A stretch of DNA of 64,000 nt from NCBI RefSeq assembly GCF_002812705.1, contig NZ_CP025030.1, positions 3,720,001 through 3,784,000 of the forward strand, in the 5' to 3' direction. Source of the DNA: Achromobacter spanius. GTDB taxonomy: Bacteria > Pseudomonadota > Gammaproteobacteria > Burkholderiales > Burkholderiaceae_B. Made by a program: the position numbers and the translations under genes. Within the stretch, counting starts at the first letter, position 1, and every line of letters begins with the position of its first letter. The notes under the pieces were generated by a model, which made no database searches, had not been told where the DNA came from, and was given only the letters and a program-made list of their open reading frames with translations. Positions 2,855-23,024 of this stretch are shown here, one piece after another.

Positions 2855-2959
2855 TGATTGTGTTACGCCGTCGGCCCCTATGATTCCGTCATCCAATGGG
2901 ATACCGGTGTGTTCGGGGTCCTGTGCTCTATCCGTATTGCAACGCAAGAAGGCGCCACG

Positions 2960-3367: not shown

Positions 3368-3389
3368 TCCATAAAGGGAGCAACAGGCA

Positions 3390-3809: not shown

Positions 3810-3828
3810 CCCCTGACAGAGTGAATCC

Positions 3829-4527
3829 ATGACCACCGTCAATCAAAACACCAGCGCCACCGGCATGGCCTTGGCCCAAACGGGTTCCACCAGCTCCATC
3901 ACGGCGCAGGGCCTGCAGGACCAGTTCCTGAAGCTGCTCACCACGCAGTTGCAGAACCAGGATCCGCTGAACCCGATGGAAAACGCCGAGCTCACCTCGC
4001 AGATGGCCCAAATCGCGACGGTGGAAGGCGTCAACAACCTCAAGAACACCATGCTGGCCATCAGCGGCCAGATCGACGTGTCGCAGTCGATGAACGCTGT
4101 GGCGATGATCGGCAAGGGCGTGCTCATCCCCGGCAACAAGATCAAGATGGGCGTCGACGGCGATAACGCCGCCGAGCGCGTGGTCACCCCTTACGGCCTG
4201 GACTTGCAAGCCGACGCGCAGAAGGTGCAAGTGCGCATCGCCGACGCCAACGGCGCCATCGTTCGCACCATTGAAATGGGCGAGCAAAAGGCTGGCGTTT
4301 ACACGCTGGACTGGGACGGCAAGAACGACAGCGGCGTGGTGCTGGAGCCGGGCGCGTACACCGTGTCCGTCCTGGCCACCGACGGCGATGGCAAGAAGAT
4401 CAATTCGGAAGTGCTGCGCTACGGCCAGGTCAAGAGCGTGGCGTACTCCACCGAAGGTTTGCGTCTGGACATGGGCCTGGACGGCCAGGCCAGCATGCTG
4501 GATGTGCGTAAGGTAATCGGCGCCTGA
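3829..4527 (+). CDS. flgD: FlgD, hook cap / hook assembly scaffold
   Basis: 232 residues. The conserved N-terminal segment has DQFLKLLTTQLQNQDPLNPM (residues about 30-49) and the following hydrophobic gate-binding region. The rest is a Tudor/FnIII-like body (for example VYTLDWDGKNDSGVVLEPGAY). FlgD caps the growing hook and is displaced by FlgK. It lies directly before the hook gene flgE, with a 71-bp gap that holds no other recognisable element. Confidence 0.95.
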   Translation: MTTVNQNTSATGMALAQTGSTSSITAQGLQDQFLKLLTTQLQNQDPLNPMENAELTSQMAQIATVEGVNNLKNTMLAISGQIDVSQSMNAVAMIGKGVLIPGNKIKMGVDGDNAAERVVTPYGLDLQADAQKVQVRIADANGAIVRTIEMGEQKAGVYTLDWDGKNDSGVVLEPGAYTVSVLATDGDGKKINSEVLRYGQVKSVAYSTEGLRLDMGLDGQASMLDVRKVIGA

Positions 4528-4598
4528 ATCGGGCGGACGTGAATCGGTGCCGGCGCACGGGCGGCGGCTTCCCTAGATAAAGATCAGCGAGAGAAAAC

Positions 4599-6068
4599 AT
4601 GGGCTTCGGACAAGGATTGAGCGGCTTGAATGCCGCTGCGCAGAACCTGGATGTCATCGGCAACAACATTGCGAACTCCGGCACCGTCGGCTTCAAGTCG
4701 GCCACCGCGTCGTTCGCCGACGTCTACGCCAGCTCGCGCGTGGGCCTGGGCGTGAAAGTGGCCGCCATCAACCAGCGCTTCACGGTGGGTACCGTGCAGG
4801 GCGGCGGCGGCGAATACGACATTGCCATCGACGGCGCCAAGGGCATGTTCCGCCTGACCGACCAGAGCGGCGCGGTCATGTATTCGCGCAACGGTGAATT
4901 CCTGGTCGACAAGAACAGCTACATCGTCAACGCCCAGGGCTACCGCCTGACGGGTTACCCGGCGGGCGCGATCGGCGCGAACCCGGTCGAACTGCAAGTG
5001 CCGACCGCCAACGTGGCGCCGCAAGCCAGCGCCACCGGCACGACCGTGGCCAACCTGAACGCCAACGCCAAAGTCGTTTACCTGACCGATACGGTGACGT
5101 CGCCCGCGGTCGACGGCACGGTGACGCTGGGCGGTACGCCCTACACATTCACGCGCGACGCCGGTGGCGCCCTGGTCTGGGCAGCGGGTACCCCGCCCGC
5201 CGGCACGTACGGCACGGCGCCAAACGAGGTCACCATCGACGGCGCGGGCGCCATCACGGCGGGCGACATCAGCCAGATTCCGGGCTACGTCAACTACACC
5301 GCGGCTGTCACGGAAATTGGCCGTCCGTTCGACCCCACCATCTCCGCCAGCTACACAAACGCATCGCCCATGACGGTGTTCGACTCCCTGGGCAACTCGC
5401 ACCAGGTGATGCAGTACTTCGTCAAGCGTCCGGCCGACGCCGGGGGCAATAGCGTCTACGACGTGTACTACACGATGGACGGCCAGGCCATGGCGCCCAC
5501 GACCCAGGCGGCGGGCGTCTGGGGCAACCCCACGCAGTTCACGTTCAACAAGGCCGGCGCGATGACCAGCGCCCCGGTCGTGACGTTGAGCTTTGCGACG
5601 CCGGGCGGCACCGTCACGCCGGCCGACCCGCTCAGCATCGCCATGAACTACACCGGCACCACCCAGTACGGCAGCGACTACAAGCTGGTGGCCAAGCCCG
5701 ACGGCTACACCTCGGGTGAATTCAGCGGCATCAACATCGGCGCCGACGGCAGCCTGGTGGCCAGCTACACCAACGGCGAAACGCAAGTGGTCGGCAACAT
5801 CGTGCTGGCTGACTTTTCCAACCTGCAAGGCTTGCAGCCCATCGGCAACAACGCCTGGTCCGAAACGGCCGCCTCCGGCCAGCCGATCCTGGGCCAGCCC
5901 GGCACCAACGGCATGTCCCGCGTGGTCGGCCAGGCGACGGAAGCGTCCAACGTCGACATGAGCAAGGAACTGGTCAACATGATCATTGCCCAGCGCACGT
6001 ACCAGGCCAACTCGCAGACCATCAAGACCCAGGACGAAATCATGCAAGTCCTGATGAACCTGAAGTAA
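4599..6068 (+). CDS. flgE: FlgE, flagellar hook protein
   Basis: 489 residues, longer than the about 400 of enteric FlgE; the extra length is in the central domains (about residues 130-300), which are variable and surface-exposed in this family. The N-terminus (GFGQGLSGLNAAAQNLDVIG, with the following NNIANSGTVGFK) and C-terminus (SNVDMSKELVNMIIAQRTYQ) carry the axial-protein motifs that form the D0 coiled coils. It polymerises into the universal joint outside the outer membrane. AGCGAGAG precedes the ATG. FliK proteins (26842 and 35512) would set hook length. Confidence 0.96.
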   Translation: MGFGQGLSGLNAAAQNLDVIGNNIANSGTVGFKSATASFADVYASSRVGLGVKVAAINQRFTVGTVQGGGGEYDIAIDGAKGMFRLTDQSGAVMYSRNGEFLVDKNSYIVNAQGYRLTGYPAGAIGANPVELQVPTANVAPQASATGTTVANLNANAKVVYLTDTVTSPAVDGTVTLGGTPYTFTRDAGGALVWAAGTPPAGTYGTAPNEVTIDGAGAITAGDISQIPGYVNYTAAVTEIGRPFDPTISASYTNASPMTVFDSLGNSHQVMQYFVKRPADAGGNSVYDVYYTMDGQAMAPTTQAAGVWGNPTQFTFNKAGAMTSAPVVTLSFATPGGTVTPADPLSIAMNYTGTTQYGSDYKLVAKPDGYTSGEFSGINIGADGSLVASYTNGETQVVGNIVLADFSNLQGLQPIGNNAWSETAASGQPILGQPGTNGMSRVVGQATEASNVDMSKELVNMIIAQRTYQANSQTIKTQDEIMQVLMNLK

Positions 6069-6101
6069 AGCTGGCTCGCGACGACACCGACGGAATAGGC
6101 A

Positions 6102-6863
6102 ATGGACAGAATCATCTACACCGCCATGAATGGCGCAGCGCGTATCACTGAGCATCAGGCCGCGCTCTCCAACAACATGGCCAACGTGAACACGACGGGC
6201 TTTCGCGAGCAGATCGCGTTGTACCGCTCGGTTCCGATGGCGGACGGGGTGAGTCTGCCGACGCGGGTTTCGACGGTGGCGTCCACCCCCGGCAACAGCT
6301 TCCAGATGGGCACGATGCAGACCACGGGCCGCGACATGGACGTGGCGCTGGCCAGCGAAAACGGCTGGATCGCCGTGCAGACCCCGCAAGGCGAGGCCTA
6401 CACGCGCGGCGGCAGCCTGCAAGTGGGCATCAACGGTCTGTTGCAGACGTCGTTGGGCCAGCCGGTGCTGTCGGATCAGGGCGGTCCCATCGACGTGCCC
6501 GACCAGGCCGCGCTGAGCATCACGTCGGACGGCACCATCACCGCCATCGGCGCGGGCGACGGTCCGAACAACATCCTGAACCTGGGCCGCCTGAAGCTGG
6601 CCAACCCGAACAACGCGCAACTGGTGCACGGCGACGACGGCGTGTTCCGCATGCCACCGGTCAATGGCCAGCCGGCGCCGCCCCTGCCCGCCGACCCCGG
6701 CCTGCGCCTGTTGTCCGGCGTACTGGAAGGCAGCAACACCAATCCGATGAAGGCGATGGTGGGCATGATTGAAAACGCCCGCCGCTTCGAGCAGCAGATG
6801 CAGGTGATCCAGCAGTCGGACCGCAACGCCGAACGCGCCAACGGCATCCTGTCGGTCAGCTGA
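6102..6863 (+). CDS. flgF: FlgF, proximal rod protein
   Basis: 253 residues, normal length. The start MDRIIYTAMNGAARITEHQA and the segment NNMANVNTTGFREQ are the FlgF form of the rod N-terminal motif. The C-terminal half ends with NPMKAMVGMIENARRFEQQM, the paired helix. It forms the proximal rod with FlgB, FlgC and FliE and precedes its paralogue flgG by 64 bp. Confidence 0.95.
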   Translation: MDRIIYTAMNGAARITEHQAALSNNMANVNTTGFREQIALYRSVPMADGVSLPTRVSTVASTPGNSFQMGTMQTTGRDMDVALASENGWIAVQTPQGEAYTRGGSLQVGINGLLQTSLGQPVLSDQGGPIDVPDQAALSITSDGTITAIGAGDGPNNILNLGRLKLANPNNAQLVHGDDGVFRMPPVNGQPAPPLPADPGLRLLSGVLEGSNTNPMKAMVGMIENARRFEQQMQVIQQSDRNAERANGILSVS

Positions 6864-6927
6864 TTCGGCCGCTGATTCAAACCATTTTTTGCGCGCGGCC
6901 GGGCCGCGCCACTAGGAGTACTTCATC

Positions 6928-7713
6928 ATGATGCGTTCGCTGTGGATTGCCAAGACGGGCCTGGAAGGTCAACAGATGTCCATGGACGTGATCTCCAATA
7001 ACTTGGCCAACGTCTCCACCAACGGCTTCAAGCGCGGCCGCGCCGTGTTCCAGGACCTGATGTACCAGACGCTGCGCCAGCCCGGCGCCCAGGTGGGCGA
7101 CGCCACGCAACTGCCGTCCGGCCTGCAATTGGGCACGGGCGCGCGCGTGGCCGCCACCGAGCGCATCCACACCGACGGCAACCTGAACAACACCGGCGGC
7201 GAAATGGACATTGCCATCAACGGCCGGGGTTTCCTGCAAGTGGAACTGCCCGACGGCACCCAGGGTTACACCCGCGACGGCGCGCTGCAACGCGATCAGA
7301 ACGGCCAGTTGACCACGGTGTCCGGCTACGTGATCCAGCCGCCGATGAACGTGCCGGACAATGCCTTGTCCATCTCCATCGGCAAGGACGGCATCGTGTC
7401 GGTGACGCAGCCTGGCGCCGCCGGCGTGAACGTGCAGATCGGCCAGTTGCAGATCGCCACCTTCATCAACCCGACCGGTCTGCAAAGCATCGGCGAAAAC
7501 CTGTATCTGGAAACGGATGCCTCCGGCCCCGCCAACCTGCTGCAGCCGGGTGTGGACGGCGCGGGTTCGATCATGCAGAACTACGTTGAAACCTCGAACG
7601 TGAACGTTGCTGAAGAACTGGTCAACATGATCACGACCCAGCGCGCTTATGAAATGAACAGCAAGGCCGTCAAGACCTCTGACGAGATGCTGGCCCGCCT
7701 GTCCCAACTGTGA
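6928..7713 (+). CDS. flgG: FlgG, distal rod protein
   Basis: 261 residues, highly typical: starts [20 protein letters not shown], then [20 protein letters not shown], and ends with [20 protein letters not shown]. The second ATG (6931) is an equally good start. FlgG polymerises into the distal rod, whose length is limited by the outer membrane and the L and P rings encoded next. Its stop overlaps the flgH start by one base (TGATG), suggesting translational coupling. Confidence 0.97.
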
Positions 7714-8402
7714 TGCCCATGTCTGTCCTGCGTCTGGTATTGTCTGCGGCGCTGGCTATGCTGGCGGCCGGTTGCGCCATGATTCCGCCCGAGCCCATCG
7801 TGACCGGGCCGACGACCGCCGCGCCGCCGCCGCCGCCCATGCCCATGGCGCAGCCCACGGGCTCGATCTATCAGCCCACCACCTACGGCAACTATCCGTT
7901 GTTCGAAGACCGCCGGCCGCGCAACGTGGGCGACATCGTCACCATTGTGCTGAACGAACGCACCAACGCGTCCAAGAACGTCGCCACCAACACCAACCGC
8001 ACCGGCTCGACCACGCTGGGCATCGCGGCGGCGCCATCGTTCATGAACAGTTGGGCCAACGCCAACCTGAATACCGAGGCCAACGGCGGCAACGTGTCGC
8101 AGGGCAAGGGCGACAGCACCGCCAACAACGCCTTCACGGGCACCATCACCACCACCGTGGTGGGCGTGATGTCCAACGGCAACTTGCAGGTGGCTGGCGA
8201 GAAGCAGATCGCCATCAACCGGGGCAGCGAGTACGTACGCTTTGCCGGCGTGGTGGATCCGCGTTCCATTACCGGCACGAACACCGTGTCGTCCACGCAA
8301 GTGGCCGACGCCCGCATTGAATATCGCAGCAAGGGCGTCATGGATGAAGTCCAGACCATGGGCTGGCTGCAACGCTTCTTCCTGCTTGCTTCGCCGTTCT
8401 GA
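7713..8402 (+). CDS. flgH: FlgH, L-ring lipoprotein
   Basis: 229 residues from the ATG at 7713. The N-terminus is a lipoprotein signal with the lipobox LAAGC (Cys near residue 22), followed by a Pro-rich linker. Family segments include [20 protein letters not shown] and [20 protein letters not shown]. FlgH forms the outer-membrane bushing around the rod. It overlaps flgG by 1 bp at its start, and its TGA overlaps the ATG of flgI by 1 bp. Confidence 0.96.
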
Positions 8403-9541
8403 TGATGACAAAACCCACTCCGATATCCGCCGTGCTGTCCTTGTTCGCCCGCGTGTGCGTGGCGGTGGGGCTGCTTGCCGGCGCCGGCGCTGCGCAAGCC
8501 GATCGGCTCAAGGATCTGGCTACGATCCAGGGCGTGCGGGGCAATCAGCTGATCGGCTATGGCCTGGTTGTGGGCCTGGACGGCAGCGGCGACCAGGTGC
8601 GCCAGACGCCCTTCACCCAGCAAAGCCTGACCAACATGCTGTCGCAACTGGGCATTACGGTGCCCGCCGGCAGCAACATGCAATTGAAGAACGTGGCGGC
8701 CGTCATGGTCACCACCACCTTGCCGGCGTTCGCCCGGCCCGGCCAGACGCTGGACGTGGTGGTGTCGTCCATGGGTAACGCCAAGAGCCTGCGCGGCGGC
8801 ACCTTGTTGATGACGCCCTTGAAGGGCGCCGACAGCCAGGTCTACGCCATTGCCCAGGGCAACATCCTGGTGGGCGGCGCGGGTGCGTCGGCAGGCGGTT
8901 CCAGCGTGCAGATCAACCAATTGAACGGCGGCCGCATCAGCGCGGGCGCCATCGTCGAACGCGGCGTGCCCACCACGTTCTCGCGCGACGGCTATATCCA
9001 CATTGAACTGAACAATACGGACTTCGGCACGGCGCAGAACGTGGCGGTGGCCTTGAACCGCAAGTTCGGCCAGGGCACGGCCACCGCGCTGGACGGTCGC
9101 GTGGTGCAGGTGCGCACGCCCATGGAGCAGTCCTCGCAGGCGCGCTTCCTGTCGCAGGTGGAAGACTTGCAGGTGACGCGCGCGCCCACGGTCGCCAAAG
9201 TCATCATCAACGCCCGTACCGGCTCGGTCGTCATGAACCGCACGGTCATGATCGAAGAGGCCGCCGTGGCGCACGGCAACCTGTCGGTCATCATCAACCG
9301 CCAGAACCAGGTGTCGCAGCCGGACACGCCTTTCACCGAAGGGCAGACGGTGGTGGTGCCCAACACGCAGATCGAAGTGCGGCAGGACAACGGTTCGTTG
9401 CAGCGCGTGAGCACCAGCGCCAACCTGGCTGACGTGGTCAAGGGCCTGAACGCCCTGGGCGCCACGCCGCAAGACCTGCTGGCAATCCTGCAGGCCATGA
9501 AAACCGCGGGCGCCTTGCGCGCCGAACTGGAAATCATCTAA
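8402..9541 (+). CDS. flgI: FlgI, P-ring protein
   Basis: 379 residues (ATG at 8402, second ATG at 8405 possible). A signal peptide runs to about AGAAQA, then the mature protein starts with the family motif [20 protein letters not shown]. The segment [10 protein letters not shown] follows, and [20 protein letters not shown] near the C-terminus is also typical. It forms the ring in the peptidoglycan layer with help from FlgA (2066-2782). Genes flgG-flgH-flgI-flgJ are nearly gapless, so one transcript is likely. Confidence 0.96.
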
Positions 9542-9546
9542 CGGCC

Positions 9547-10524
9547 ATGGCGATCACCCAAGACGCGGCACGCGGCGCCGGCCGCCAGGAATCTGTCTTT
9601 GACATGGGCCGCTTGTCGGACCTGAAGCGCGACGTCAAGAAAGACCCCGAAGGCACCGACCAGCAGAAGCAGGTGGCCAGGCAATTCGAAGCCCTGTTCC
9701 TGCAGATGATGGTCAAGCGCATGCGCGAGGCCACGCCCAAGGAAGGGCTGTTTGATTCGCAACAGACGCAGATGCTGCAGTCCATGGCCGACGAGCAATT
9801 GGCGCTGCACCTGGCGTCGCCCGGGATCGGGTTGACCCAGTCCATCCTGGCGCAGATGCAGCAAGGCAAGCCGGCCGATATGTCCGACGATGCCGTGCGC
9901 GCCATCGCGCAGGGCGGCGACCTGGATTTCCGCACCGGCGGCTCGCGCGAGGTGTCGGCGCTGCTGAACGTGATGCGCAACAACCGCGCCAGCGACCGCG
10001 CCTTGGCGGCAGCCGAGGGCGCGCCCGAACACGTGGTCGACTTCGTGTCGAAGATGTCGCGCGCGGCCAACCTGGCGTCTCAGCAAAGCGGGGTGCCCGC
10101 TCGCCTGATCATGGGTCAGGCGGCCCTGGAGTCGGGTTGGGGCCAGCGCGAGATCAAGCATCCGGACGGCAGCACCAGCTACAACCTGTTCGGCATCAAG
10201 GCCGGCGGCAGTTGGAAGGGGCAGGTCGTCAATGTGTTGACCACTGAATACGAAGGCGGTGTCGCGAAAAAAGTGACACAACCCTTTCGTGCCTATTCTT
10301 CTTATGAAGAGTCGTTCTCGGACTACGCCCGCCTGATCGGCAACAGCCCGCGCTACGAAGCCGTTACGCAGGCTCGCAACGAAATCGACGCGGCCCGCAA
10401 GATCCAGGACGCCGGCTACGCCACCGACCCGCGCTATGCGCAAAAGCTGATCGGCATCATGGGCCAGTTGCGCGGGGCGGCATCCGACGTGGAAATTTCT
10501 CGTCAGATGTTGGAAGGACTCTAA
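9547..10524 (+). CDS. flgJ: FlgJ, rod cap with peptidoglycan hydrolase domain
   Basis: 325 residues, the dual-domain form. The N-terminal half (about 30-105) has the rod-scaffold motif QFEALFLQMMVKRMREATPK. The C-terminal half (about 170-320) is a glucosaminidase-type domain with SGVPARLIMGQAALESGWGQ, where the Glu of ALESGWG is the expected catalytic acid, followed by SYNLFGIKA. It opens the peptidoglycan for the rod. Its TAA stop is the first part of the sigma-28 promoter of flgK. Confidence 0.95.
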   Translation: MAITQDAARGAGRQESVFDMGRLSDLKRDVKKDPEGTDQQKQVARQFEALFLQMMVKRMREATPKEGLFDSQQTQMLQSMADEQLALHLASPGIGLTQSILAQMQQGKPADMSDDAVRAIAQGGDLDFRTGGSREVSALLNVMRNNRASDRALAAAEGAPEHVVDFVSKMSRAANLASQQSGVPARLIMGQAALESGWGQREIKHPDGSTSYNLFGIKAGGSWKGQVVNVLTTEYEGGVAKKVTQPFRAYSSYEESFSDYARLIGNSPRYEAVTQARNEIDAARKIQDAGYATDPRYAQKLIGIMGQLRGAASDVEISRQMLEGL

Positions 10525-10548
10525 ATTTGGACGATCTCCTGCCGTTAT
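10522..10548 (+). promoter_or_regulatory. Sigma-28 (FliA) promoter for flgKL, overlapping the flgJ stop
   Basis: TAAATTTG-N11-GCCGTTAT fits the FliA consensus with exact 11-bp spacing. The TAA of flgJ is the first three bases of the -35 element. It lies about 50 bp upstream of flgK and would separate the late hook-junction genes from the middle flgB-J operon. Confidence 0.8.
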
Positions 10549-10597
10549 TGGAGTATCCAGAGATATCACCTGCGGTTACACACGGGGCATTGTTAGC

Positions 10598-12271
10598 ATG
10601 AACTTGTACAAAACAGCGCTGAGCGGGCTGAACGCCGCCCAGGCAGGCTTGTCAACCACCACTCACAACATCAACAATGCCACCACGGTTGGCTACAACC
10701 GTCAGCGCGTGCTGACCTCGACCGCGGGCGCCCAAGCCACCAGCAACGGTTACATCGGCCGAGGCGTACAGGTTGATACGGTCGAGCGCAGCTACGACAG
10801 CTTCCTGTACAAGCAGTTGGTCGGCTCGACCGGCAGCGGCGCGCAGTTGCAAACGCAGTTTGCGCAGGTATCGCAGATCAACAACCTGTTTGCCGACCGC
10901 ACCGTGGGCATCGCCCCGGGCCTGACCGATTTCTTCACCAGCATGAACACGGTCGCCAGCAAGCCGGCCGACCCGGCGGCGCGCGCCGACCTCTTGGGCA
11001 AGGCCAACAGCCTGGCCACGCAGATCCGTTCGGCTTACACCGAAATGCAGAATCAGCGTGAAGGCCTGAATACGCAGATCACCACCACGGTTGAACAGGT
11101 CAACAGCTACCTGGGCCGTATCGACGACCTGAACACGCAGATTTCGCTGGCGGCCGGCAAGGCCAATGGCAGCCCCCCCAACGACCTGCTCGATCAGCGC
11201 GACCAGGCCGTGCTCGAACTGAACCAGCTCATCGGCATCACGACCTACCCGCAGGGCGACAAGATCAATATCTCGTTGACCAAGGGTGGCCAGTCGCTGT
11301 TGGCGGGCACGACGCTGTACCCGTTGCAGGCGATTCCGTCGACCAAGGACGCCAGCCGCACGGTCATCGCCTACACCTTGCCGGCCGGTGCGGGCAAGAC
11401 GGTTGCGGTGGAAATGGAAGACAGCGAAATCACGGGCGGTTCGCTCGGCGGCCTGTTGCAGTTCCGCTCGTCGTCGCTGGACCTGATGCAGAACCAGCTG
11501 GGCCAGATGGCCGTTGGCCTGGCCTTGTCGTTCAACGAACAGCACACCCAGGGCCTGGACCAGAACGGCAATCCGGGCACCGATTTCTTCAGCGTCAGTT
11601 CGCCGGAAGCCGTACCGAACACCAGCAACAAGAGCAACGCGCAGATCACGGGCGAATTCACCACCCTGGGCAACATCAACGCCAAGGACTACGAGATTTC
11701 GTTTGACGGCACCAACTACCAGGTGCTGCGCATGCCGGAAGGCACGCGCGTCTATAACGGACCCGCCACCGGCACGCCGCCCAACGCCACGCTGAACATG
11801 GACGCCGAGATGGGCGTGACGCTGACGATCGACGCGCCGCCGCAGGCAGGCGACAAGTGGTCGCTGTCGCCCACGCGCAATGCCGCGCGCGACATCAACG
11901 TGCTGATCACCGATCCGGAAAAAGTGGCCGCGGCCGACGCCGAGGGCGGTGACGCCAACGGCAAGAACGCGCTGAAACTGGCGCAGCTGCAAAGCGCCAA
12001 GATTCTGGGCCACGGCACGATGAGCACCACCGACATGTTCGCGCAGGTGGTGAACACGGTGGGTGTGCAGACCGCACAGGTGAAGTCGGCCGCCACCGCG
12101 CAAGCCAACCTGATCAAGCAGACCACCGCTGCCCAGCAGTCGGTGTCGGGTGTCAACCTGAACGAAGAATACGTCAGCCTGTCGTTGTACCAAGAGCAAT
12201 ACCAGGCCAGCGCGCGCATTATCGATGTGGCCAGCACCGTGTTTGACACGCTGTTGGGCCTGCGTGGTTGA
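10598..12271 (+). CDS. flgK: FlgK, hook-filament junction protein 1
   Basis: 557 residues. The N-terminus MNLYKTALSGLNAAQAGLST and the following NINNATTVGYNRQRVL are the HAP1 form of the axial motif. The C-terminus has GVNLNEEYVSLSLYQEQYQA, which packs against it. FlgK is exported with FlgN, displaces the FlgD cap and joins hook to FlgL and the filament. It is preceded by a FliA promoter and followed by flgL after 44 bp. Confidence 0.95.
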   Translation: MNLYKTALSGLNAAQAGLSTTTHNINNATTVGYNRQRVLTSTAGAQATSNGYIGRGVQVDTVERSYDSFLYKQLVGSTGSGAQLQTQFAQVSQINNLFADRTVGIAPGLTDFFTSMNTVASKPADPAARADLLGKANSLATQIRSAYTEMQNQREGLNTQITTTVEQVNSYLGRIDDLNTQISLAAGKANGSPPNDLLDQRDQAVLELNQLIGITTYPQGDKINISLTKGGQSLLAGTTLYPLQAIPSTKDASRTVIAYTLPAGAGKTVAVEMEDSEITGGSLGGLLQFRSSSLDLMQNQLGQMAVGLALSFNEQHTQGLDQNGNPGTDFFSVSSPEAVPNTSNKSNAQITGEFTTLGNINAKDYEISFDGTNYQVLRMPEGTRVYNGPATGTPPNATLNMDAEMGVTLTIDAPPQAGDKWSLSPTRNAARDINVLITDPEKVAAADAEGGDANGKNALKLAQLQSAKILGHGTMSTTDMFAQVVNTVGVQTAQVKSAATAQANLIKQTTAAQQSVSGVNLNEEYVSLSLYQEQYQASARIIDVASTVFDTLLGLRG

Positions 12272-12315
12272 TACGAACCTATTGTGATGATTAAGAAGAA
12301 TTCCGGAGCCGCACC

Positions 12316-13575
12316 ATGCGCCTGAGCACCACGATGATGTATTCGAACGGCCTGAGCGGCATTATGGCCCAGGAGTCGGACATGAACCGCCTGGTTGAAC
12401 AGGTGGGCAGCGGCCGCAAGTTCCTGACTCCCGCTGATGATCCCTTGTCCGCTTCGCTGTCCATCGGCGTGGCGCAGACCCAGAGCATGAACAGCACGTA
12501 CGGTCTGAACCGCGACGCGGCGATGACCAATCTGGGCCAGGAAAGCAATGTGCTGGACTCGATCACGACCGCCTTGCAGGATGTGCGCACGCGCGTCATC
12601 CAGGCCGGTAACGGCACCTTCGCCGACAGCGACCGCCAGGCCCTGTCGACCGCGCTGAAAAGCGCCCGCGATGCACTGCTGGGTCTGGCGAACAGCACGG
12701 ACGGCAACGGCCAGTACCTGTTCTCGGGTTACCAGGGCGGCGTGGTTCCCTATTCGCAGGACGTCAACGGCAAGATCATCTACAGCGGCGCCACCGGCGA
12801 ACGCACGATGCAGGTGGACCAGTCGCGCCAGTTGTCCACGAGCGATCTGGGCAGCGATGTTTTCAATCGCGCCAACCCCGGCTCGCAGGCGTATGTCAGC
12901 ACCGCCGCCAACGCCAATACCGGCACGGCCCAGTTCAGCACGGTGTCGGTGACGCCGGGCAGCGCCAACATCGGCAAGAATTTCCAGATCCAGTTTGAAG
13001 CGGATCCGGCCACGGGCAACATGGGTTACCGCGTCACGACGACGGACCCGACCGCCATCCCGCCAGTCCCGCCCGTCATCACGCCCGCGCCGCCGGCCGC
13101 GCCCACGCAGTACACGGCGGATTCGGCCATCGACTTCGGTGGCGTGTCGGTAGTGATCAAGGGCACGCCCGCCAACGGCGACGTGATCAACGTCGAGAGC
13201 GTGCAGTCGGCGGACGTGGACATGTTCAACACGCTGGACAGCCTGATCAAGGTGCTGGATTCGCCGATTGCCGGCGACGAAGTCGCCCTGGCCAAGCTGA
13301 ACAACGAATTGGCGACCGCCAACAAGAAGCTGGCGAGCAACTACGACAACGTCTTGACGGTAGCAGCCTCGGTCGGCGCCCGCATGAACGAGCTGGAAGC
13401 GCTGGATGCGACCGGCACGAAGAAGGGTTTGACCTATTCCAAGTCGCTGTCGGACTTGGAAGATTTGGATTATTACGCCGGCACCAGCCAGCTTGCATTG
13501 CGCAAGGTCGCGCTGCAAGCGGCTTCCGCCGCGTTCATGACGATTCAGGGATCCAGCCTGTTCAGCCGCCAATAA
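12316..13575 (+). CDS. flgL: FlgL, hook-filament junction protein 3
   Basis: 419 residues, within the long range for FlgL. The flagellin-like N-terminus has MRLSTTMMYSNGLSGIMAQE and FLTPADDPLSASLSIGVAQT. The C-terminus ends DYYAGTSQLALRKVALQAASAAF, the D0 helix. The middle contains a Pro-rich insert (about 245-265). It sits between FlgK and the filament. A strong hairpin (13621-13652) follows, though without a T-tract. Confidence 0.93.
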   Translation: MRLSTTMMYSNGLSGIMAQESDMNRLVEQVGSGRKFLTPADDPLSASLSIGVAQTQSMNSTYGLNRDAAMTNLGQESNVLDSITTALQDVRTRVIQAGNGTFADSDRQALSTALKSARDALLGLANSTDGNGQYLFSGYQGGVVPYSQDVNGKIIYSGATGERTMQVDQSRQLSTSDLGSDVFNRANPGSQAYVSTAANANTGTAQFSTVSVTPGSANIGKNFQIQFEADPATGNMGYRVTTTDPTAIPPVPPVITPAPPAAPTQYTADSAIDFGGVSVVIKGTPANGDVINVESVQSADVDMFNTLDSLIKVLDSPIAGDEVALAKLNNELATANKKLASNYDNVLTVAASVGARMNELEALDATGTKKGLTYSKSLSDLEDLDYYAGTSQLALRKVALQAASAAFMTIQGSSLFSRQ

Positions 13576-13620
13576 GCGGCGGATTCCCAGGCCGCGTCAC
13601 GGCGCGGCGGTGCGCATACT

Positions 13621-13652
13621 CGGACGCTTCCGGTCAAGGACCGGGGCGTCCG
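13621..13652 (+). terminator. Nested hairpin after flgL (possible terminator or processing site)
   Basis: CGGACGC pairs with GCGTCCG and, inside it, CCGGTC pairs with GACCGG around an AAG loop. No T-run follows, so factor-independent termination is uncertain. It may instead stabilise the flgKL mRNA or separate it from the receptor gene at 13707. Confidence 0.55.
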
Positions 13653-13706
13653 TGGTTGCGTTCAGGGTAGGTTGTGTCGTTTCACTGTTTAACGCTCGGG
13701 TATTTC

Positions 13707-15650
13707 ATGCTTGCCAATTTGAAAGTCCGCACCTGTATCGTTCTGGTGCTCTTGCTCTTCACGGGCGCCATGTTCATTTCGAACGGCGTGGCGTGGTTGG
13801 GCCTGAACTCCAGCAACGGGAAGCTGGAGCAGGTCAATGACGCCTATTCCAATCAGGCGACCCAGTTGAATCGCGCCTACATTGCCTTCCTGCGCGGCCG
13901 CCTGTTGCTGGCGAATTCGCTGATGGATATGCAGCAGGGCAAGACCGAGCAGGCAACGTCCCAGGCCAAGCGCGCCGATACGCTGATGCAGGAAGGCAAG
14001 CAGCAGCTTGAGGCGTTCCGCAAGGTGCCGCGCATGACGGGTTCCGAAGCCGTGGTCGAAAAGCTGGAAGCCGCGTTCAGGCAGTTTGACGACGTGTACA
14101 AGCGCCAGGCAGCGGCATTGTCCAACCTGGCCATTCAAGAGTATCTGGACCTGAACGACGCCGGCAGCGCCGCCAATACCGCATTCCGTGAATCGGTGTA
14201 TGGCGTGCTGCAATTCCTGGATACGCGCACCAACGAACTGGTGGTGCAGGCCGAGACCGATCATCGCATCTCGCGCACCGTGACGATTGCGATGCTGGCG
14301 ATCACGCTGCTGCTGGCGCTGGGTTGCTGGATTTTCATCAACCGCACCGTGCTGCGTCCGCTGCATCAGGCGGGCGACCATTTTGACAAGATCTCGGGCG
14401 GCGACTTCACCGGCCGTATCGATGTGCGCAGCACCAACGAAATCGGCCAGTTGTTCGGGGCCATCAAGCGCATGCAGGAAAGCCTGACGCGTACGGTCGC
14501 GACCGTGCGCCGTGGTGTGGACGAGATCAATGTGGGCGCGCGTGAAATTTCCGCCGGCAACACCGACCTGTCCAGCCGCACGGAACAACAGGCGGCGTCC
14601 CTTGAGGAAACCGCCGCGTCCATGGAAGAGCTGGCGTCCACCGTGAAGCAGAACGCGGACAACGCGCGTCAGGCCAACCAGTTGGCGGCCAGCGCGTCGG
14701 ACGTGGCCGAGCGCGGTGGTTCTGCCGTGTCGGAAGTGGTCAGCACGATGCAGGGCATTTCGGCCAGCTCGCGCAAGATCTCCGAGATTGTTTCGGTCAT
14801 TGACGGCATTGCGTTCCAGACCAACATCCTGGCGCTGAACGCGGCGGTGGAAGCCGCGCGTGCAGGCGAGCAGGGCAAGGGCTTTGCGGTGGTGGCGGGC
14901 GAAGTGCGCTCGCTGGCGCAACGCAGCGCGCAAGCCGCCAAGGAAATCAAGGGCCTGATCGAAGACTCGGTCAACAAGGTCGGCGCGGGTTCGCAGCAGG
15001 TGGAACGCGCGGGTGCAACGATGCAGGAAATCGTGGCGTCGGTGAAGCGCGTGACGGACATCATGGGCGAAATTTCGGCGGCGTCCGAAGAGCAGTCCAG
15101 CGGTATTGACCAGGTCAACCGCGCCGTGTCGCAGATGGACGAAGTGACGCAGCAGAACGCGGCGCTGGTCGAAGAAGCGGCCGCCGCGGCGGGCTCCTTG
15201 CAAGAACAGGCCCAGCGTCTGGCGCAAGCCGTGGCAGTGTTCAAGATCAACGCGGGCGAAGTGATTGAAGTGCCGGCGCAGCATCTGGCCAGCCAGCAAG
15301 CCGCGCCGCGCGTGTCGCCGCCGCAAACGGCGCCGCGTGCGCCGTCACCGGCCCAGCATTTGCCGCATTCGGCTCAAGCTGCCAGCGCGGCATCGACGTC
15401 CGCATCGCAGGCCGAGGCATCGACGCAGGACGCTGACGAAGCGTCCGCCGCACCGAAACCCGCGCCGCGCAAGACGCAGGTGGCACGTCCCAAGCCGGCC
15501 GCCACGGCGGCTACCGTGGTGCGCCCGTTGCGCCGTCCGGCCACGCGCGCGGACAACGCGGCGACCCGGGCCGGGGCAGATGCAACGCCCACCGCTTCAG
15601 CATCCAGCCGCCGGTCCGCGCCCTCGGACGATGATTGGGAGTCCTTCTGA
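13707..15650 (+). CDS. Methyl-accepting chemotaxis receptor 1, with C-terminal docking pentapeptide
   Basis: 647 residues from the ATG at 13707 ([14 protein letters not shown]), chosen over 13674 because the basic-then-hydrophobic TM1 starts here. TM1 is about 10-30, a periplasmic four-helix-type sensor about 31-188, TM2 about 190-212 and HAMP about 213-265. The cytoplasmic coiled coil has its conserved tip near 360-405 ([20 protein letters not shown]). An Ala/Pro-rich linker ends in DWESF, the CheR/CheB-docking type of pentapeptide. The ligand is unknown. From the HAMP region on it is almost identical to the next two receptors. Confidence 0.93.
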
Positions 15651-15761
15651 CGAATCCCGCGTCAGTGCATTGAATAGGCAGTCGATTACAAACAGGTCAT
15701 TCCCCTTTACGGACCGGCGGCCATCGCGCGCCACCGGGACGACTACCGGAACTATCGGAAC

Positions 15762-17630
15762 ATGTTCAGCAATCTGAAGGTGCGTACGGGCTTGATGCTC
15801 GCTCAGTTGGCAGTTGCCCTGGCCGCACTGGTTGCAATTGGTTTGGGCTGGAACAGCATGCGTGCCAGCGCCGTGACGATCAACGCGCTCGATTCGCTGA
15901 GCGTGCAGCAGAGCAACCTGATCAAGGATGCCTACACACAGATGCTGCGCGCCACGGTGCGTGCCGACATCGCCGCCGCGCAGCGCGCGGCCGGCGACGC
16001 CAATGGCGCGGCCGACAACTCGCGCACGGTGCAGCAACTGATCGGCGACGCGAAGAAGAAGATGGACGCCTTCAAGGCCGTTCCGAAGATGACGGAGATG
16101 GGCAAGGCCTCCGAAGGCCAACTGATTTCGTCGTTCAACGGCTTTTCCGATGCGCTGCAGTCGATGATGGGCGCGCTGGACAAGGGCGACGCCGCCACCT
16201 ACCTGAGCCTGAAGAACACCAAGGCGGGCGCCGCCAGCGGTGCGTTCTTCAAAGAACTGACCGCCTTCGCCGACAACATCAGCGCCTACAGCGAGCAGCA
16301 GGTGCAAGCCTCGCGCGCCGAGTCCACGATGATGACCTACGTGTACCTGGGCTTGGCCGCCTTGATTCTGGCCGTGTCCCTGGGCGCCTTCCTGTTCATG
16401 AACCGCGTTGTGCTGCGCCCCTTGCGCGCCGTCAGCGACAGCTTCGACAAGATCGCGGGCGGCGACCTGACCGTGCGCGTGGAAGCCACGGCCAACAACG
16501 AAATCGGCCACTTGATGGCTGCGGTGAAGCGCATGCAGGAAAGCCTGACGCGCACGGTGGCGGCGGTGCGCCGTGGCGTGGACGAGATCAACGTGGGGTC
16601 GCGTGAGATTTCGGCCGGCAACACGGATCTGTCCAGCCGCACGGAACAACAGGCGGCGTCCCTTGAGGAAACCGCCGCGTCGATGGAACAACTGGCGTCC
16701 ACCGTGAAGCAGAACGCCGACAACGCACGCCAGGCCAATCAATTGGCGGCCAGCGCGTCGGACGTGGCTGAACGCGGTGGTTCGGCGGTGTCGGAAGTGG
16801 TCAACACCATGCACGACATTTCGGCCAGCTCGCGCAAGATTTCGGAAATCGTTTCCGTTATTGACGGCATCGCCTTCCAGACCAACATCCTGGCGCTGAA
16901 CGCCGCCGTGGAAGCCGCGCGTGCAGGTGAGCAGGGCAAGGGTTTCGCGGTGGTGGCGGGCGAAGTGCGCTCGTTGGCGCAGCGCAGCGCGCAAGCCGCC
17001 AAGGAAATCAAGGGCCTGATCGAAGACTCGGTCACGAAGGTCGGCGCGGGTTCGCAGCAAGTGGAACGCGCGGGCGCGACGATGCAGGAAATCGTGGCAT
17101 CGGTGAAGCGCGTGACGGACATCATGGGCGAGATCTCGGCGGCGTCCGACGAGCAGTCCAGCGGCATTGACCAGGTCAACCGCGCCGTGTCGCAGATGGA
17201 CGAAGTGACGCAGCAGAACGCGGCGCTGGTGGAAGAAGCGGCGGCCGCGGCGGGTTCGCTGCAAGAGCAGGCGGAACGCCTGGTGCAAGCCGTGGCGGTG
17301 TTCAAGATCAACGCGGGCGAAGTGATTGAAGTGCCGGCGCGCCAGTTGGCGCAGCAAGCCCCGCCGCAGCGCGCGCCGCGCGTTGCCGCGCCGGCCCCGG
17401 CCAAGGCCCCGGCTGATGCGCCCGCCGAAGCGCCTGCGCGTTCGGCGCCTGCTGTGCGTCTGACCCACGCCGCGCGTGCCAAGCCGGCACCCGCCGCCGA
17501 GGGCGCATCCGCCGCGCGTCCGTTGCGCCGTCCAACTCCGCGTCCGGCAGCGCCCGCAGGCGAGGCCAAGCCGGCGCCTGCGGCCAGCCGCCGGCAAGCA
17601 CCGTCCGACGACGATTGGGAATCTTTTTGA
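15762..17630 (+). CDS. Methyl-accepting chemotaxis receptor 2, with C-terminal docking pentapeptide
   Basis: 622 residues. TM1 about 7-28, periplasmic sensor about 29-187 (unlike that of receptor 1 in sequence), TM2 about 189-212, then HAMP and the long signalling coiled coil. The tip sequence is the same as in receptor 1. The tail is an Ala/Pro-rich linker ending in DWESF, suggesting it can recruit CheR or CheB. The ligand cannot be read from sequence. No sigma-28 site was found in the 111-bp gap before it, so it may be read from upstream. The lipoprotein gene follows after 29 bp. Confidence 0.93.
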
Positions 17631-17659
17631 TGCCGGCACCGCTGGCGAACAGGTAGGGT

Positions 17660-18130
17660 ATGCGAGGCTATAGACATCTTCTGGCGGCTGCCGCCATCGC
17701 GTTGCTGCTTGGCGGCTGCGCGGCCACGGGCCACAACTTCGACCCGGGCAAACTGAGCACGCTGACCCCTGGCCAGACGACGCTGGAAGAAGCCTCGCGG
17801 GCGCTGACCGCGCCGCCTGACAAGATTTACCGACAAACCGACGGCACGCAACTCGCCCTCTGGTCGCACAAGATCACGTTTATCACCGACGGGCTGTACA
17901 GCCGCAAGGAAGCGCTGCTGCAGTTCGGCCCGGACGGCCGCCTGATGCGGCTGGTTGATAGCACCAATATTCTGCTGGAACCTTGGGAACGCCAGAAATT
18001 GCTGGGTCCCGCGCCCATGCCTGACGCGCGTCAGGATTGGCCGCCACCCGTGGCGGAACCCGAGGTGCAAACTATCTACATACCCGGTCCGGGAGAGCCG
18101 GCCGGGTTGGCTCCACAGGGTAAGCAGTAG
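17660..18130 (+). CDS. Small lipoprotein of unknown function, BamE/OmlA-like fold possible
   Basis: 156 residues. A lipoprotein signal with lipobox LLGGC (Cys near residue 20) is clear. The following part (LSTLTPGQTTLEEASRALTA, then WSHKITFITDGLYSRKEALL and FGPDGRLMRLVDS) has the layout of SmpA/OmlA/BamE-type proteins: a short helix pair then strands with a G-x-P-like turn. The C-terminus is Pro-rich. It lies between receptor genes and in the same direction, 29 bp after receptor 2; whether it has any chemotaxis role is unknown. The similarity call is by eye only. Confidence 0.65.
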   Translation: MRGYRHLLAAAAIALLLGGCAATGHNFDPGKLSTLTPGQTTLEEASRALTAPPDKIYRQTDGTQLALWSHKITFITDGLYSRKEALLQFGPDGRLMRLVDSTNILLEPWERQKLLGPAPMPDARQDWPPPVAEPEVQTIYIPGPGEPAGLAPQGKQ

Positions 18131-18152
18131 GCCTGGGTAGTCCGGCAGAGAG

Positions 18153-18174
18153 CATTGCGGCGCGCGCCGCAATG
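18153..18174. repeat. Perfect 22-bp palindrome upstream of receptor 3
   Basis: The first half, CATTGCGGCGC, is followed directly by its exact reverse complement, giving a symmetric 22-bp site between the lipoprotein stop and the receptor 3 start. It could be a hairpin or a dimeric repressor site; no T-tract follows. Confidence 0.6.
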
Positions 18175-18268
18175 TACGTCGCCTTGAATGTACCCGCCGT
18201 GTAACAGGGCGTGTCCGCAAGGTGGTTTTTCATTTGGTCAGAGCAGTTCCTGAGGGATGGGGAAAAAT

Positions 18269-20019
18269 ATGGAAGCGAGTCTCGAATCCGGCGCAAAGGC
18301 CGGCAAAGGCAGGAAAAAGGCCGCGCGCGCGCCCAAGGTAAAACGCAAGCTGCGGCTGCGTGACGCCCGCGTCGGTACGATGCTGCTGTGGGTGATGGCG
18401 TTTTTCGCGATCCTGATCGCGGCGGTGGGCGGCCTGGCCGCATTTTTCTTGCAGCACAATTACGAGTCCATTCGCGAAGTGAACGCGCTGACCGAGCGTG
18501 CCAAGCAAGTCGAAGTGATCAACAGCGACATGTTGCGCGCCCGCGTGAGCCTGATGGTGGCCGCGCGCCACTTGCAGGAATCCGGCTGGGGCAGCGGCGA
18601 GAACTCGGCCCGTGACGCGGCCGCCGCCTTGAAGGCCGCCACCGACCTGCTGACGGGCGTGCGCAGCCGCTTCTCGGACTTCCAGAAGAACATGCCTCGG
18701 ACTTCCAGAAGAACATGCTTCAGGACGACACCGGCCGCCAACTGTCCATGAACCTGGTGCGTCGTTATCGCTCCTACATCGACGACGGTGTGGACACGAT
18801 GGTGGAAGCCCTGCGCAGCGAAGACTATTCGACGTTCTACATGGTGAACAACGAATACGGCACGCCGCGTAGCGCCGCCTTCATCGAGGCGATCGGCGAT
18901 TTCAGCAAGTACATCGGCGACCAGCAGCAAGCCACCATTGATCAGGCTGAAGCGAACTTCAACCGCGCCATGGTGGCCGTGGCCGTTGCGGTGGGCATGG
19001 CATTGCTGCTGATGATTTTCTGCCGCATCTTGTTCGGCCGCCTTGTCGTGCGCCCGCTGGTGGAAGCCGGCCAGCACTTCGACAAGATCGCCGCCGGCGA
19101 CCTGACGAGCCGCGTGGAAGTGAAGTCGCACAACGAAATCGGCCAGTTGATGGCGGCCGTGAAGCGCATGCAGGAAAGCCTGTCGCGTACGGTGACGACG
19201 GTGCGCCGTGGCGTGGACGAGATCACCGTGGGTTCGCGTGAAATCGCGGCCGGCAACACGGACCTGTCCAGCCGTACCGAAGAGCAGGCGGCTTCCCTTG
19301 AGGAAACCGCGGCGTCGATGGAAGAGCTGGCCTCTACCGTGAAGCAGAACGCGGACAACGCGCGCCAGGCCAACCAGTTGGCCGCCAGCGCGTCGGACGT
19401 GGCCGAGCGCGGTGGTTCGGCGGTGTCGGAAGTGGTCAGCACGATGCAGGGCATTTCGGCCAGCTCGCGCAAGATCTCGGAAATCGTTTCCGTCATCGAC
19501 GGCATTGCGTTCCAGACCAACATCCTGGCGCTGAACGCGGCGGTGGAAGCGGCGCGTGCAGGCGAGCAGGGCAAGGGTTTCGCGGTGGTGGCGGGCGAAG
19601 TGCGCTCGCTGGCGCAACGCAGCGCGCAAGCCGCCAAGGAAATCAAGGGCTTGATCGAAGACTCGGTCAACAAGGTCGGCGCGGGTTCGCAGCAGGTGGA
19701 ACGCGCGGGTGCAACGATGCAGGAAATCGTGGCGTCGGTGAAGCGCGTGACGGACATCATGGGCGAGATTTCGGCGGCGTCCGAAGAGCAGTCCAGCGGT
19801 ATTGACCAGGTCAACCGCGCCGTGTCGCAGATGGACGAAGTGACGCAGCAGAACGCGGCCTTGGTGGAAGAAGCTGCGGCCGCCGCCGGTTCGTTGCAGG
19901 ATCAAGCGCACCGCCTGGCCGAAGCCGTGGCGGTGTTCAAGATCAACGCCGGCGAAGTGATCGAAGTGCCCGCCCACCAACTGAGCGGCTACGCGTCCCC
20001 GACGCTGACGCAAGGTTGA
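18269..20019 (+). pseudogene. Methyl-accepting chemotaxis receptor 3, frame broken by a 23-bp tandem duplication
   Basis: The start is taken as ATG 18269 (GGGG upstream) rather than 18257. The first frame encodes a basic N-terminus, TM1 (about 40-62) and the start of the sensor. At 18673-18718 the unit CTCGGACTTCCAGAAGAACA(TGC) occurs twice in tandem, shifting the frame. The rest continues at 18715-20019 in another frame with TM2, HAMP and the shared signalling domain. Removing one copy restores one frame of about 575 residues through [17 protein letters not shown]. Unlike receptors 1 and 2 it has no DWESF tail. It may be a reversible switch, a fixed mutation or an assembly error. Confidence 0.85.
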
Positions 20020-20028
20020 TAGGTAGAC

Positions 20029-20051
20029 GGCCGGGGGAAACCCCGGCCTTT
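20029..20051 (+). terminator. Rho-independent terminator after receptor 3
   Basis: GGCCGGGG-GAAA-CCCCGGCC followed by TTTG, eleven bases after the stop codon at 20017-20019. It is a strong stem with a stable GAAA loop but a short T-run. Confidence 0.75.
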
Positions 20052-20067
20052 GATGCAACGGCGGCTC

Positions 20068-20249
20068 GTAGGATGGGTGGAGCGCGCGCGGACGTTGATT
20101 AGAACAAGGCTGCCGATCGCGCGTAACCCATCGGACGGCGCAGCGGTTCTTAACCGGATCCGCCACAACGCGACGTTCGTCTGATGGGTTACGCGCGATC
20201 GGCGTTTGTTTGCGCGGGGCGGACGGTGCGCGCTTCACCCATCCTACGG
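20068..20249. repeat. Pair of palindromic repeat elements in opposite orientation
   Basis: The first element runs 20068-20132 (GTAGGATGGGTGGAGCGCGC to GCGCGTAACCCATC) and the second 20183-20249 (GATGGGTTACGCGCGATC to CACCCATCCTACGG). Together they form a long imperfect inverted repeat. The termini match those of the array at 458-1020, so one element family is present at two sites. A short run of CCACCGG-like repeats follows (about 20250-20298). Confidence 0.85.
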
Positions 20250-20525: not shown

Positions 20526-22121
20526 GTGCGCGTGAACTTACCCATCACTGATGTGGAAACCAAGCTGCGCGAAGATCAATACCTGATCTCGCGAACCGAT
20601 ACCAAGGGCCGCATCGTCTACGCGAACCCGGCGTTCGTTGACGTCAGCGGCTTTACCCGCGAAGAACTCATCGGCAAGCCGCACAACATCGTGCGCCATC
20701 CCGACATGCCGCCCGAGGCTTACGAAGACTTGTGGGAAACCTTGGAAGCCGGCGAATCGTGGCTGGGCCTGGTCAAGAACCGCCGCAAGGATGGTGGCTA
20801 TTACTGGGTGCTGGCCAACGCCACGCCCATCGTCGAAAACGACGAAGTCGTCGCGTATTCCTCGGTGCGGGTGCGGCCTTCCGACGAACAGATCGAGATG
20901 GCCGAAGAACTCTACGCGCGCATGCGCGAAGGCTCGGCACGAGGCATCCGCATCAAGCGCGGACGGCCGGTGCGCGCCGGCTGGCGGCGTGGCCTGGACG
21001 TGGTGGCGTTTCCGTTCAAGCGCAGCGTGCGCAGCCGGATGTTCCGCCATGCCCTGGTGTCCGCCGGCATCGTCGCGGGCGCGGGCGCCTATGGCTTGCA
21101 CGCCAATTGGGACAGCCTGGGCACCTGGGGCGCCAGCCTGGGATGCGGCGCCATCGCGCTGGGCGTGATCGCCATCTTCGGGATGGGTTGGAGCTTGTCG
21201 CGGTCGCTGCTGGACCCGATGCTGGACGCCGCCAACATGGCGCGCCAGGTGGCCGCCGGCAACCTCACCACGCAGATCATCGCGGACTCGGATGATGAAG
21301 TGGGCAGCTTGAAGTTCTCGCTGGAAGTCATGCGCAAGAGCCTCATCGGCATCGCCCAGGACGTCTATCGCGGTATCGAGGGCACGACCCATGCGGCCGT
21401 GCATATCGCGCGCGGCAACCAGGAACTGGCCGGCCGCACGGAAGGGCAGGCGTCGTCCTTGCAGCAAACCGCCGCCAGCATGGAGCAACTGACGTCCACC
21501 GTGCGCCAGAACGCCGACAACGCACGACAGGCCAACCAGTTGGCCGCCAGCAGCATGGACGTGGCGCGGCGCGGTGGCGTGGCCGTGGGCCAGGTGGTCG
21601 ACACCATGCACGGCATCTCGGCCAGCTCACGCAAGATCGCGGACATTGTCAGCATCATCGAAGGCATCGCGTTCCAGACCAACATCCTGGCCCTTAACGC
21701 CGCGGTGGAAGCAGCCCGCGCCGGCGAAACCGGCAAGGGCTTCGCCGTGGTGGCGGGCGAAGTGCGCAGCCTGGCGCAGAAAAGCGCGCAGGCCGCTAAA
21801 GAGATCAAGGGCTTGATCGAGGATTCCGTGGACCGCGTGTCGGAAGGCTCGGCGCAGGCCGAGCAAGCGGGCGCAACCATGGAAGAAATCGTGGCGGCCG
21901 TGCATCGGGTCACCGACATCATCGGGGAAATCTCGCAGGCGTCCCAAGAGCAGTCCAGCGGTATCGAACAGGTGGATACTGCCGTGTCGCAGATGGACGT
22001 GATGACCGTGCAGAACACGGCGCTGGTGCAGGAATTGGGCGGCGCGGTGATGCAGCTGGGCACCCAGTCCGGTGCGCTGCGCGAGACGATCCGGGTATTC
22101 CGGCTTACCGGTCAGCCCTGA
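20526..22121 (+). CDS. aer: Aer-type PAS-domain chemoreceptor (aerotaxis/energy taxis)
   Basis: 531 residues from the GTG at 20526; [11 protein letters not shown] matches the usual Aer start. A PAS domain spans about 20-118 ([20 protein letters not shown] and [14 protein letters not shown]), which in Aer binds FAD and senses redox state. A basic linker leads to two closely spaced hydrophobic segments (about 178-198 and 203-225), then HAMP-like and receptor signalling regions with the conserved tip [20 protein letters not shown]. No docking pentapeptide. The signalling part is related to but clearly more diverged from receptors 1-3. Confidence 0.9.
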
Positions 22122-22169: not shown

Positions 22170-22206
22170 AAGCCCCTCCCTTTCGATGTTTCGGGGAGGG
22201 GCTTTT
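22170..22206. terminator. Bidirectional terminator between aer and fliR
   Basis: AAGCCCCTCCC pairs with GGGAGGGGCTT around a short loop, with T-runs on both sides. It lies between the convergent ends of aer and fliR and can serve both. Confidence 0.9.
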
Positions 22207-22235
22207 CCATTGGCCATTTGCCCAGGACTTTCCCG

Positions 22236-23024
22236 CTACCGCCCCGCCAGCGCATCCACCACCCGGCTCATCGCACCCAGGCCGGATTCGAACAAGTTCT
22301 CCAGGAACGGGCCGGAGTGCGGCAGTACCACGGTCAGCACGATCACGCCGATGATGAGCGTGACGGGAAAGCCCACCGAGAACACGGACAGTTGCTGCGC
22401 GGCGCGGTTCAGGATGCCCATGGCCAGGTTGATGGTCAGCAGCGCGCAGATCAGCGGCAGCGCCAGCAGCAGGCCCGAGACGAACACGGTCTTGCCCCAT
22501 TCCACCACCACGCCCCAGCCGTTCTGGTGCAGTTGGATCGTGGCCACGGGCAAGGTGTCGAAGGACCGCACCAGGGCGGCCAGCACCAGCAGGTGGCCGT
22601 CCAGCGCCAGGAACGTCAGCATCGCCACCATGTTGAACAGGCGCGACAGCACGGCGGTGTTGGCGCCGGCGCTGGGGTCGAAGAACGAGGCGAACGACAA
22701 GCCCATCTGCAAGCCGACGAATTCGCCGGCCGTCTGCACGGCGGCGAAAACGATGCGCATCGTGAAGCCCATGGCGATGCCGATCAGCACCTGCTGCATC
22801 ACCATCCACAGGCCCGCATAAGAGCCGGGCGAAACGGGCGGCATGGGATCCAGCGCGGGGCTGACGGCCACGGCCAGCATGAACGACAGACCCACCTTGA
22901 CCTTCACGGGAATGGCGGATTCCGAGAACAGCGGGGCGGTGCCGACCAGCGCCAGGATACGCACGAACGGCCAGAGAAACTGGCCGATCCAGCCGTTGAG
23001 CTGTTCGAGCGTGAAGGCGATCAT
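22236..23024 (-). CDS. fliR: FliR, export gate membrane protein
   Basis: 262 residues, normal length, with about six hydrophobic segments. The N-terminal LNGWIGQFLWPFVRILALVG and the segment GEFVGLQMGLSFASFFDPS are FliR signatures. With FliP and FliQ it forms the helical export gate inside the MS ring. It is the last gene of the fliK/L-R run, ending at a shared terminator with aer. Confidence 0.96.
   Translation of the reverse strand: MIAFTLEQLNGWIGQFLWPFVRILALVGTAPLFSESAIPVKVKVGLSFMLAVAVSPALDPMPPVSPGSYAGLWMVMQQVLIGIAMGFTMRIVFAAVQTAGEFVGLQMGLSFASFFDPSAGANTAVLSRLFNMVAMLTFLALDGHLLVLAALVRSFDTLPVATIQLHQNGWGVVVEWGKTVFVSGLLLALPLICALLTINLAMGILNRAAQQLSVFSVGFPVTLIIGVIVLTVVLPHSGPFLENLFESGLGAMSRVVDALAGR

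Follow-up and report, generated by a model that had tools for sequence, protein, structure and literature searches.

The window analyzed in this study, a stretch of 64,000 nucleotides of the Achromobacter spanius chromosome (contig NZ_CP025030.1, positions 3,720,001 to 3,784,000), carries a run of flagellar genes, flgE-flgL, followed by four chemoreceptor genes, the third of which is broken by a short tandem duplication (Table 1). The other three receptor genes have intact frames and served as controls. The ORF located between receptors 2 and 3, whose N-terminus we read as that of a putative lipoprotein, gave no Pfam or NCBIfam match within the cut-offs applied. Beside the receptor cluster, the aligned blocks flanking positions 22202-22236 of the window are about 5.5 kb farther apart in the related genome G036, corresponding to an insertion or a deletion. 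The window also includes an array of a 104-bp unit (positions 456-938, 4.7 copies, 93% matches), a motif of which, CACCCATCCTACGG, recurs past receptor 3 at about 20236-20249 and as its reverse complement near 20070. A 13-bp unit is repeated about 7.5 times at positions 52769-52865, where it covers the 3′ end of a minus-strand ORF and extends past it, and dense indels relative to both G036 and a second relative, G038, at 48951-49005, the 3′ end of a minus-strand ORF, suggest that this ORF may have a variable tail.

Table 1. Features of the flagellar and chemoreceptor region (positions in the 64-kb window).
Feature	Positions	Strand	Basis and remarks
flgE, F, G, H, I, J, K, L, open frames	4599..13575	+	Flagellar run upstream of the receptor cluster
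Chemoreceptor 1, TarH-HAMP-MCPsignal, intact frame	13674..15650	+	Pfam; sensing part used as control
Chemoreceptor 2, TarH-HAMP-MCPsignal, intact frame	15762..17630	+	Pfam; sensing part used as control
Putative lipoprotein, 156 aa, between receptors 2 and 3	17660..18130	+	Own reading of the N-terminus
ORF1, 5′ part of the broken receptor (chemoreceptor 3)	18269..18751	+	Pfam TarH (PF02203), conserved start; 160 aa
23-bp unit, copy 1, CTCGGACTTCCAGAAGAACATGC	18673..18695	+	Repeat scan
23-bp unit, copy 2, exact, directly abutting copy 1	18696..18718	+	Repeat scan; single copy in the 29 other aligned orthologues
ORF2, 3′ part of the broken receptor (chemoreceptor 3)	18715..20019	+	Pfam HAMP (E = 1.3e-15) and MCPsignal (E = 2.9e-59); 434 codons
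PAS-HAMP-MCPsignal receptor, aerotaxis-like, intact frame	20526..22121	+	Pfam; N-terminal part used as control

Searched separately with Pfam, the two pieces of receptor 3 contain the TarH, HAMP and MCPsignal domains in the order expected for a TarH-type methyl-accepting chemotaxis protein, and the reading frame is interrupted at the duplication, which splits the gene in its ligand-binding half. ORF1 encodes a basic N-terminus, a first transmembrane segment (TM1, a reading made by eye from a hydrophobic stretch), the first part of the TarH ligand-binding domain and a frameshifted tail. The PF02203 match (E = 2.6e-10) covers residues 37-131 of the 164-aa listed ORF, which starts at 18257; the ATG at 18269 was retained as the conserved start because several relatives have a stop or a frame change between these two ATGs. 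ORF2 encodes the remainder of the ligand-binding domain, TM2, the HAMP domain and the signalling domain, and its start, an ATG within the second copy of the repeat, is the first ATG, GTG or TTG in its frame. An intact orthologue (P0014) aligns over residues 32-553 with "Methyl-accepting chemotaxis protein I" (6s1k_E, which we take to be Tsr), and the duplicated stretch corresponds approximately to residues 137-143 in this alignment, within the ligand-binding domain. When the whole gene was used as a DNA query, 15 other places of the genome matched, all of them at query positions 790-1727 (HAMP and signalling part), and these are probably other receptors. Three receptor-like places, of which two are adjacent and the third lies at a distance of about 30 kb, share about 90% identity with the signalling module.

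The first-pass annotation had proposed an exact 23-bp tandem duplication at this place, and both its coordinates and its identity were borne out: the two copies of CTCGGACTTCCAGAAGAACATGC are 100% identical and arranged head to tail. A scan for perfect tandem duplications (units of 10-300 bp) found only two in the window, of 13 and 23 bp, while five order-3 Markov shuffles of the window gave a total of one hit, of 10 bp, and none longer. In 20 stretches of this chromosome totalling 400 kb, 17 perfect tandem duplications with a unit of at least 10 bp were found, compared with six over 400 kb of G036 (raw counts only), the longest being 15 bp in both cases. The 23-bp duplication is thus far above chance. 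Slippage on flanking microhomology was considered and rejected: a GCTTC pair surrounds the unit, but its spacing in the one-copy form is 25 and not 23, so that this pair leaves the exact endpoints of the duplication unexplained.

Long DNA matches to the receptor were found in 34 of 43 genomes of the genus, including the host genome. Base-by-base alignment of 30 fetched loci revealed a single copy of the unit in all 29 genus orthologues other than that of the host. Among the four genomes that were not aligned, three (G020, G025 and G004; loci L052, L057 and L056) have one copy, and the fourth (G017) is represented by an unbroken protein match only. Likewise, all 26 loci from named Achromobacter and Bordetella strains, B. 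pseudohinzii included, have one copy, this set overlapping the 29 aligned genus loci. In the one-copy orthologues that were read, one open frame spans the site; three of them (L021, the same locus as L045; L061; and L064) extend to a contig end, and one (L032) has a separate break upstream. This fits the earlier statement that removal of one copy unites the two halves of the gene in one frame. A 229-residue sensing-domain query taken from an intact relative was unbroken over 229/229 residues in 32 of the 34 matching genomes (32 of the 33 others), the exceptions being the host genome and Achromobacter sp. RTa (G023). Since all 29 other aligned loci have one copy, two copies are the derived state; the comparison with the orthologous locus suggested by the first-pass annotation found the two-copy allele in none of them, and an allele fixed in the genus is ruled out by these one-copy relatives. 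The nine genomes of the genus without a match are all drafts of at least 60 contigs, and the flanking receptors sit on different contigs in G042, G027 and G024; gene loss in these nine genomes was not accepted. Several of the shortened database homologues (14 sequences read) seem to reflect frame errors or contig ends, and the shortened homologues were left out of the counts.

The age of the break was evaluated from substitutions in stretches that were checked to be the orthologue and not a paralogue. Relative to G038 and G036, the two closest relatives, the dN/dS ratios of the broken gene were 0.096 (four nonsynonymous changes) relative to G038 and 0.066 (three) relative to G036 for the piece upstream of the duplication, 0.079 and 0.073 for the rest of the ligand domain up to TM2, and 0.007 and 0.009 for the HAMP and signalling part. 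The same three pieces gave 0.026 (one nonsynonymous change), 0.173 and 0.004 in the intact pair G036-G038, and the sensing parts of the control receptors gave, relative to G038 and G036, 0.147 and 0.104 (receptor 1), 0.178 and 0.128 (receptor 2) and 0.043 and 0.057 (PAS receptor). The broken gene has dN/dS values that fall inside the range found for intact receptors; the value of its upstream piece is somewhat above that of the intact pair, with small counts and, under the test applied, none of the nonsynonymous changes private to the host lineage. Changes private to this lineage, i.e., at sites where G036, G038 and G035 agree, amounted to 21 synonymous and one nonsynonymous over 565 codons, compared to about 65 nonsynonymous changes expected if the gene had been neutral over the whole branch (3.09 nonsynonymous sites per synonymous site). 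With a Poisson 95% upper limit of 4.74 for a single event, the share of the branch without constraint is limited to about 7%, and the break is therefore young. The earlier view of a recent event in an otherwise intact gene thus held, with no further stop in either piece and strong purifying selection on the signalling module. An old decaying pseudogene was rejected on the same grounds. Overall, the gene has the features of a recent loss-of-function allele (a single derived lesion, no decay and the ancestral state in relatives), and we infer that the two-copy allele has lost its function.

In our opinion, these data are probably best explained by a recent, spontaneous, inactivating duplication of 23 bp in one receptor gene rather than by an evolved switch. 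The duplication would have arisen recently, probably within the species, in one receptor beside the flg genes. Translation initiated at 18269 would leave the frame past the duplication, since 23 is not a multiple of three, and stop at 18751. The predicted product is a fragment of 160 aa that contains TM1 and some of the ligand-binding domain but neither the HAMP nor the signalling domain, so that the receptor would be off in the sequenced clone; the duplication most likely silences receptor 3. The loss of one receptor is plausibly tolerable because the frames of the three neighboring receptors and of flgE-flgL are intact. One copy might be lost again by replication slippage. Any perfect tandem repeat can shrink in this way, which is a general property and not the sign of an evolved switch.

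This interpretation has to be weighed against others. The real genome might have one copy, the second resulting from an assembly or sequencing error, which we regard as improbable. The nearby signalling modules, with their high identity, make assembly harder, but the site is located in the unique ligand-binding part, outside the module common to the neighboring receptors, and an exact 23-bp head-to-tail copy is an unusual type of assembly or sequencing error. Furthermore, the genome consists of a single contig of 6,425,783 bp with a completeness estimate of 100%. The comparison with G036 over about 63.7 kb of aligned sequence revealed 30 frame-changing gaps in predicted ORFs (greedy choice of ORFs of at least 100 aa with high GC3); according to our own reading, the 29 others are compensated by a neighboring gap, form clusters where the sequences have diverged, lie close to the end of an ORF or belong to a single short ORF of doubtful status, and none of them stands alone in the interior of a long predicted ORF. 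In the receptor cluster, this comparison concerns G036 only, since the alignment with G038 lost positions 836-20061, where paralogues were paired; over positions 20062-64000, our reading of the G038 alignment found no frame-changing gap standing alone in the interior of an ORF. A general assembly error is unlikely. Another reading accepts the duplication and supposes that translation restarts at the ATG at 18715, yielding a protein of 434 aa that contains TM2 and the HAMP and signalling domains and would join receptor arrays with a partial ligand-binding domain. This ATG has the required frame, lies 34 nt before the stop codon of ORF1 and is preceded by a weak AGAAG stretch, and the HAMP and MCPsignal domains are kept in ORF2. 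However, the ribosome site is weak, the missing TM1 and first half of the ligand domain make a correct membrane insertion doubtful, and recency explains the constraint on ORF2 equally well; such a split receptor seems very unlikely to us. Programmed -1 frameshifting that would join ORF1 and ORF2 was rejected, as their overlap contains no X-XXY-YYZ slippery heptamer.

Two further readings grant the repeat a role of its own. In Achromobacter sp. RTa, a draft genome, the same gene (locus L032, positions 657-1400, also L062) is frameshifted by an apparent 7-bp tandem duplication in the region coding for TM1, which hints that receptor 3 may be hit more than once. No break was found in the queried N-terminal segments of the neighboring receptors, to which these controls are restricted: none in 42 matching genomes for the sensing part of receptor 1, none in 32 for that of receptor 2 and none in 40 for the N-terminal part of the PAS receptor, a 41st genome having only a paralogue with 53% identity. 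Receptor 1 of G025 was left out (its open frame is short, but some bases of the repeated module are unresolved), and other short control frames (for example in G002, G019, G021, G027, G029, G039 and G042) may correspond to contig ends. The excess of breaks in receptor 3 (2/34) over its neighbors (0/114) is suggestive but borderline, with a value of 0.052 for a post hoc comparison that includes one draft genome. That short tandem duplications with the potential to revert preferentially hit receptor 3 across Achromobacter (23 bp in the host, 7 bp in RTa) appears highly improbable. The first-pass annotation had proposed that the repeat could be an on/off switch for one receptor. As a contingency locus, it would slip between one and two copies often enough to keep a mixed population with the receptor on or off. 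The exactness of the repeat, a unit length that is not a multiple of three and the strong constraint on the rest of the gene agree with this proposal, and a change of repeat length indeed shifts the frame, the two-copy allele having two frames and the one-copy relatives being open; the tandem duplication of pneumococcal wchA provides a precedent (PMC4022640), and in RTa another tandem duplication breaks this gene as well. Nevertheless, two copies are the minimum number of units, the RTa duplication lies elsewhere in the gene with another unit, and recency alone explains the intact remainder. The repeat tract is neither kept nor variable across relatives (one copy in 29/29 and 26/26 loci), and since no other orthologue read has a second copy at the site, the locus shows no conservation as a switch. 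With only two copies, no repeat in the relatives examined and nothing showing variation of copy number or selection for the repeat, this proposal is not supported and we consider a switch quite unlikely.

The recent knock-out that we favor can be compared with known systems. Simple-sequence contingency loci consist of many short units kept as a hypermutable tract, whose copy number alters expression, and the chemoreceptor gene tlpB of Helicobacter pylori shows variation of expression that depends on a G tract. The tlpB case is similar in that a chemoreceptor gene can vary through a repeat; in contrast to simple-sequence contingency loci, receptor 3 has two long units that are absent from the relatives examined. 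In pneumococcus, PMC4022640 refers to a tandem duplication in wchA behind capsule loss, cites titles that name phase variation and expects, for an insertion of at longest 9 bp, a reversion of about 1e-5 at most. Spontaneous sequence duplications in pneumococcal capsule genes were reported by Waite et al. (2001, 2003), as cited in PMC4022640, PMC4292784 and PMC4898793. In these genes, the tandem duplication of part of an ORF reportedly inactivates the gene and the loss of one copy can restore it, as would be the case here. By contrast with the capsule genes, which the cited titles associate with phase variation, our observation concerns one genome, another class of gene and no known selection for the off state. 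A parallel of comparable size is offered by lrp of Xenorhabdus, in which spontaneous loss-of-function tandem duplications of 26-116 bp occur among mutants; the authors class these variants as plain mutants and not as phase variants, and the isolates listed for the reversion test include no named duplication allele, so that the reversion of duplications is not addressed there (PMC6786866). Judged by titles and the beginnings of abstracts, no case in which two copies of a long repeat switch one chemoreceptor on and off was present among the matches listed in searches of the open-licence PMC literature on phase-variable or Achromobacter chemoreceptors. The words "duplication", "chemotaxis" and "chemoreceptor" are all absent from the main text of a 2025 review on phase variation (PMC11868660).

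The duplication in receptor 3 is a new instance of a well-known type of mutation. If the copy number proved to be mixed, a long repeat in two copies would here be switching one chemoreceptor on and off. If receptor 3 were a preferred target, cells could drop and regain one sense while the rest of chemotaxis is untouched. If it is only a recent knock-out, as we favor, the finding matters mainly for annotation: a receptor that is common in the genus would be off in the sequenced strain.
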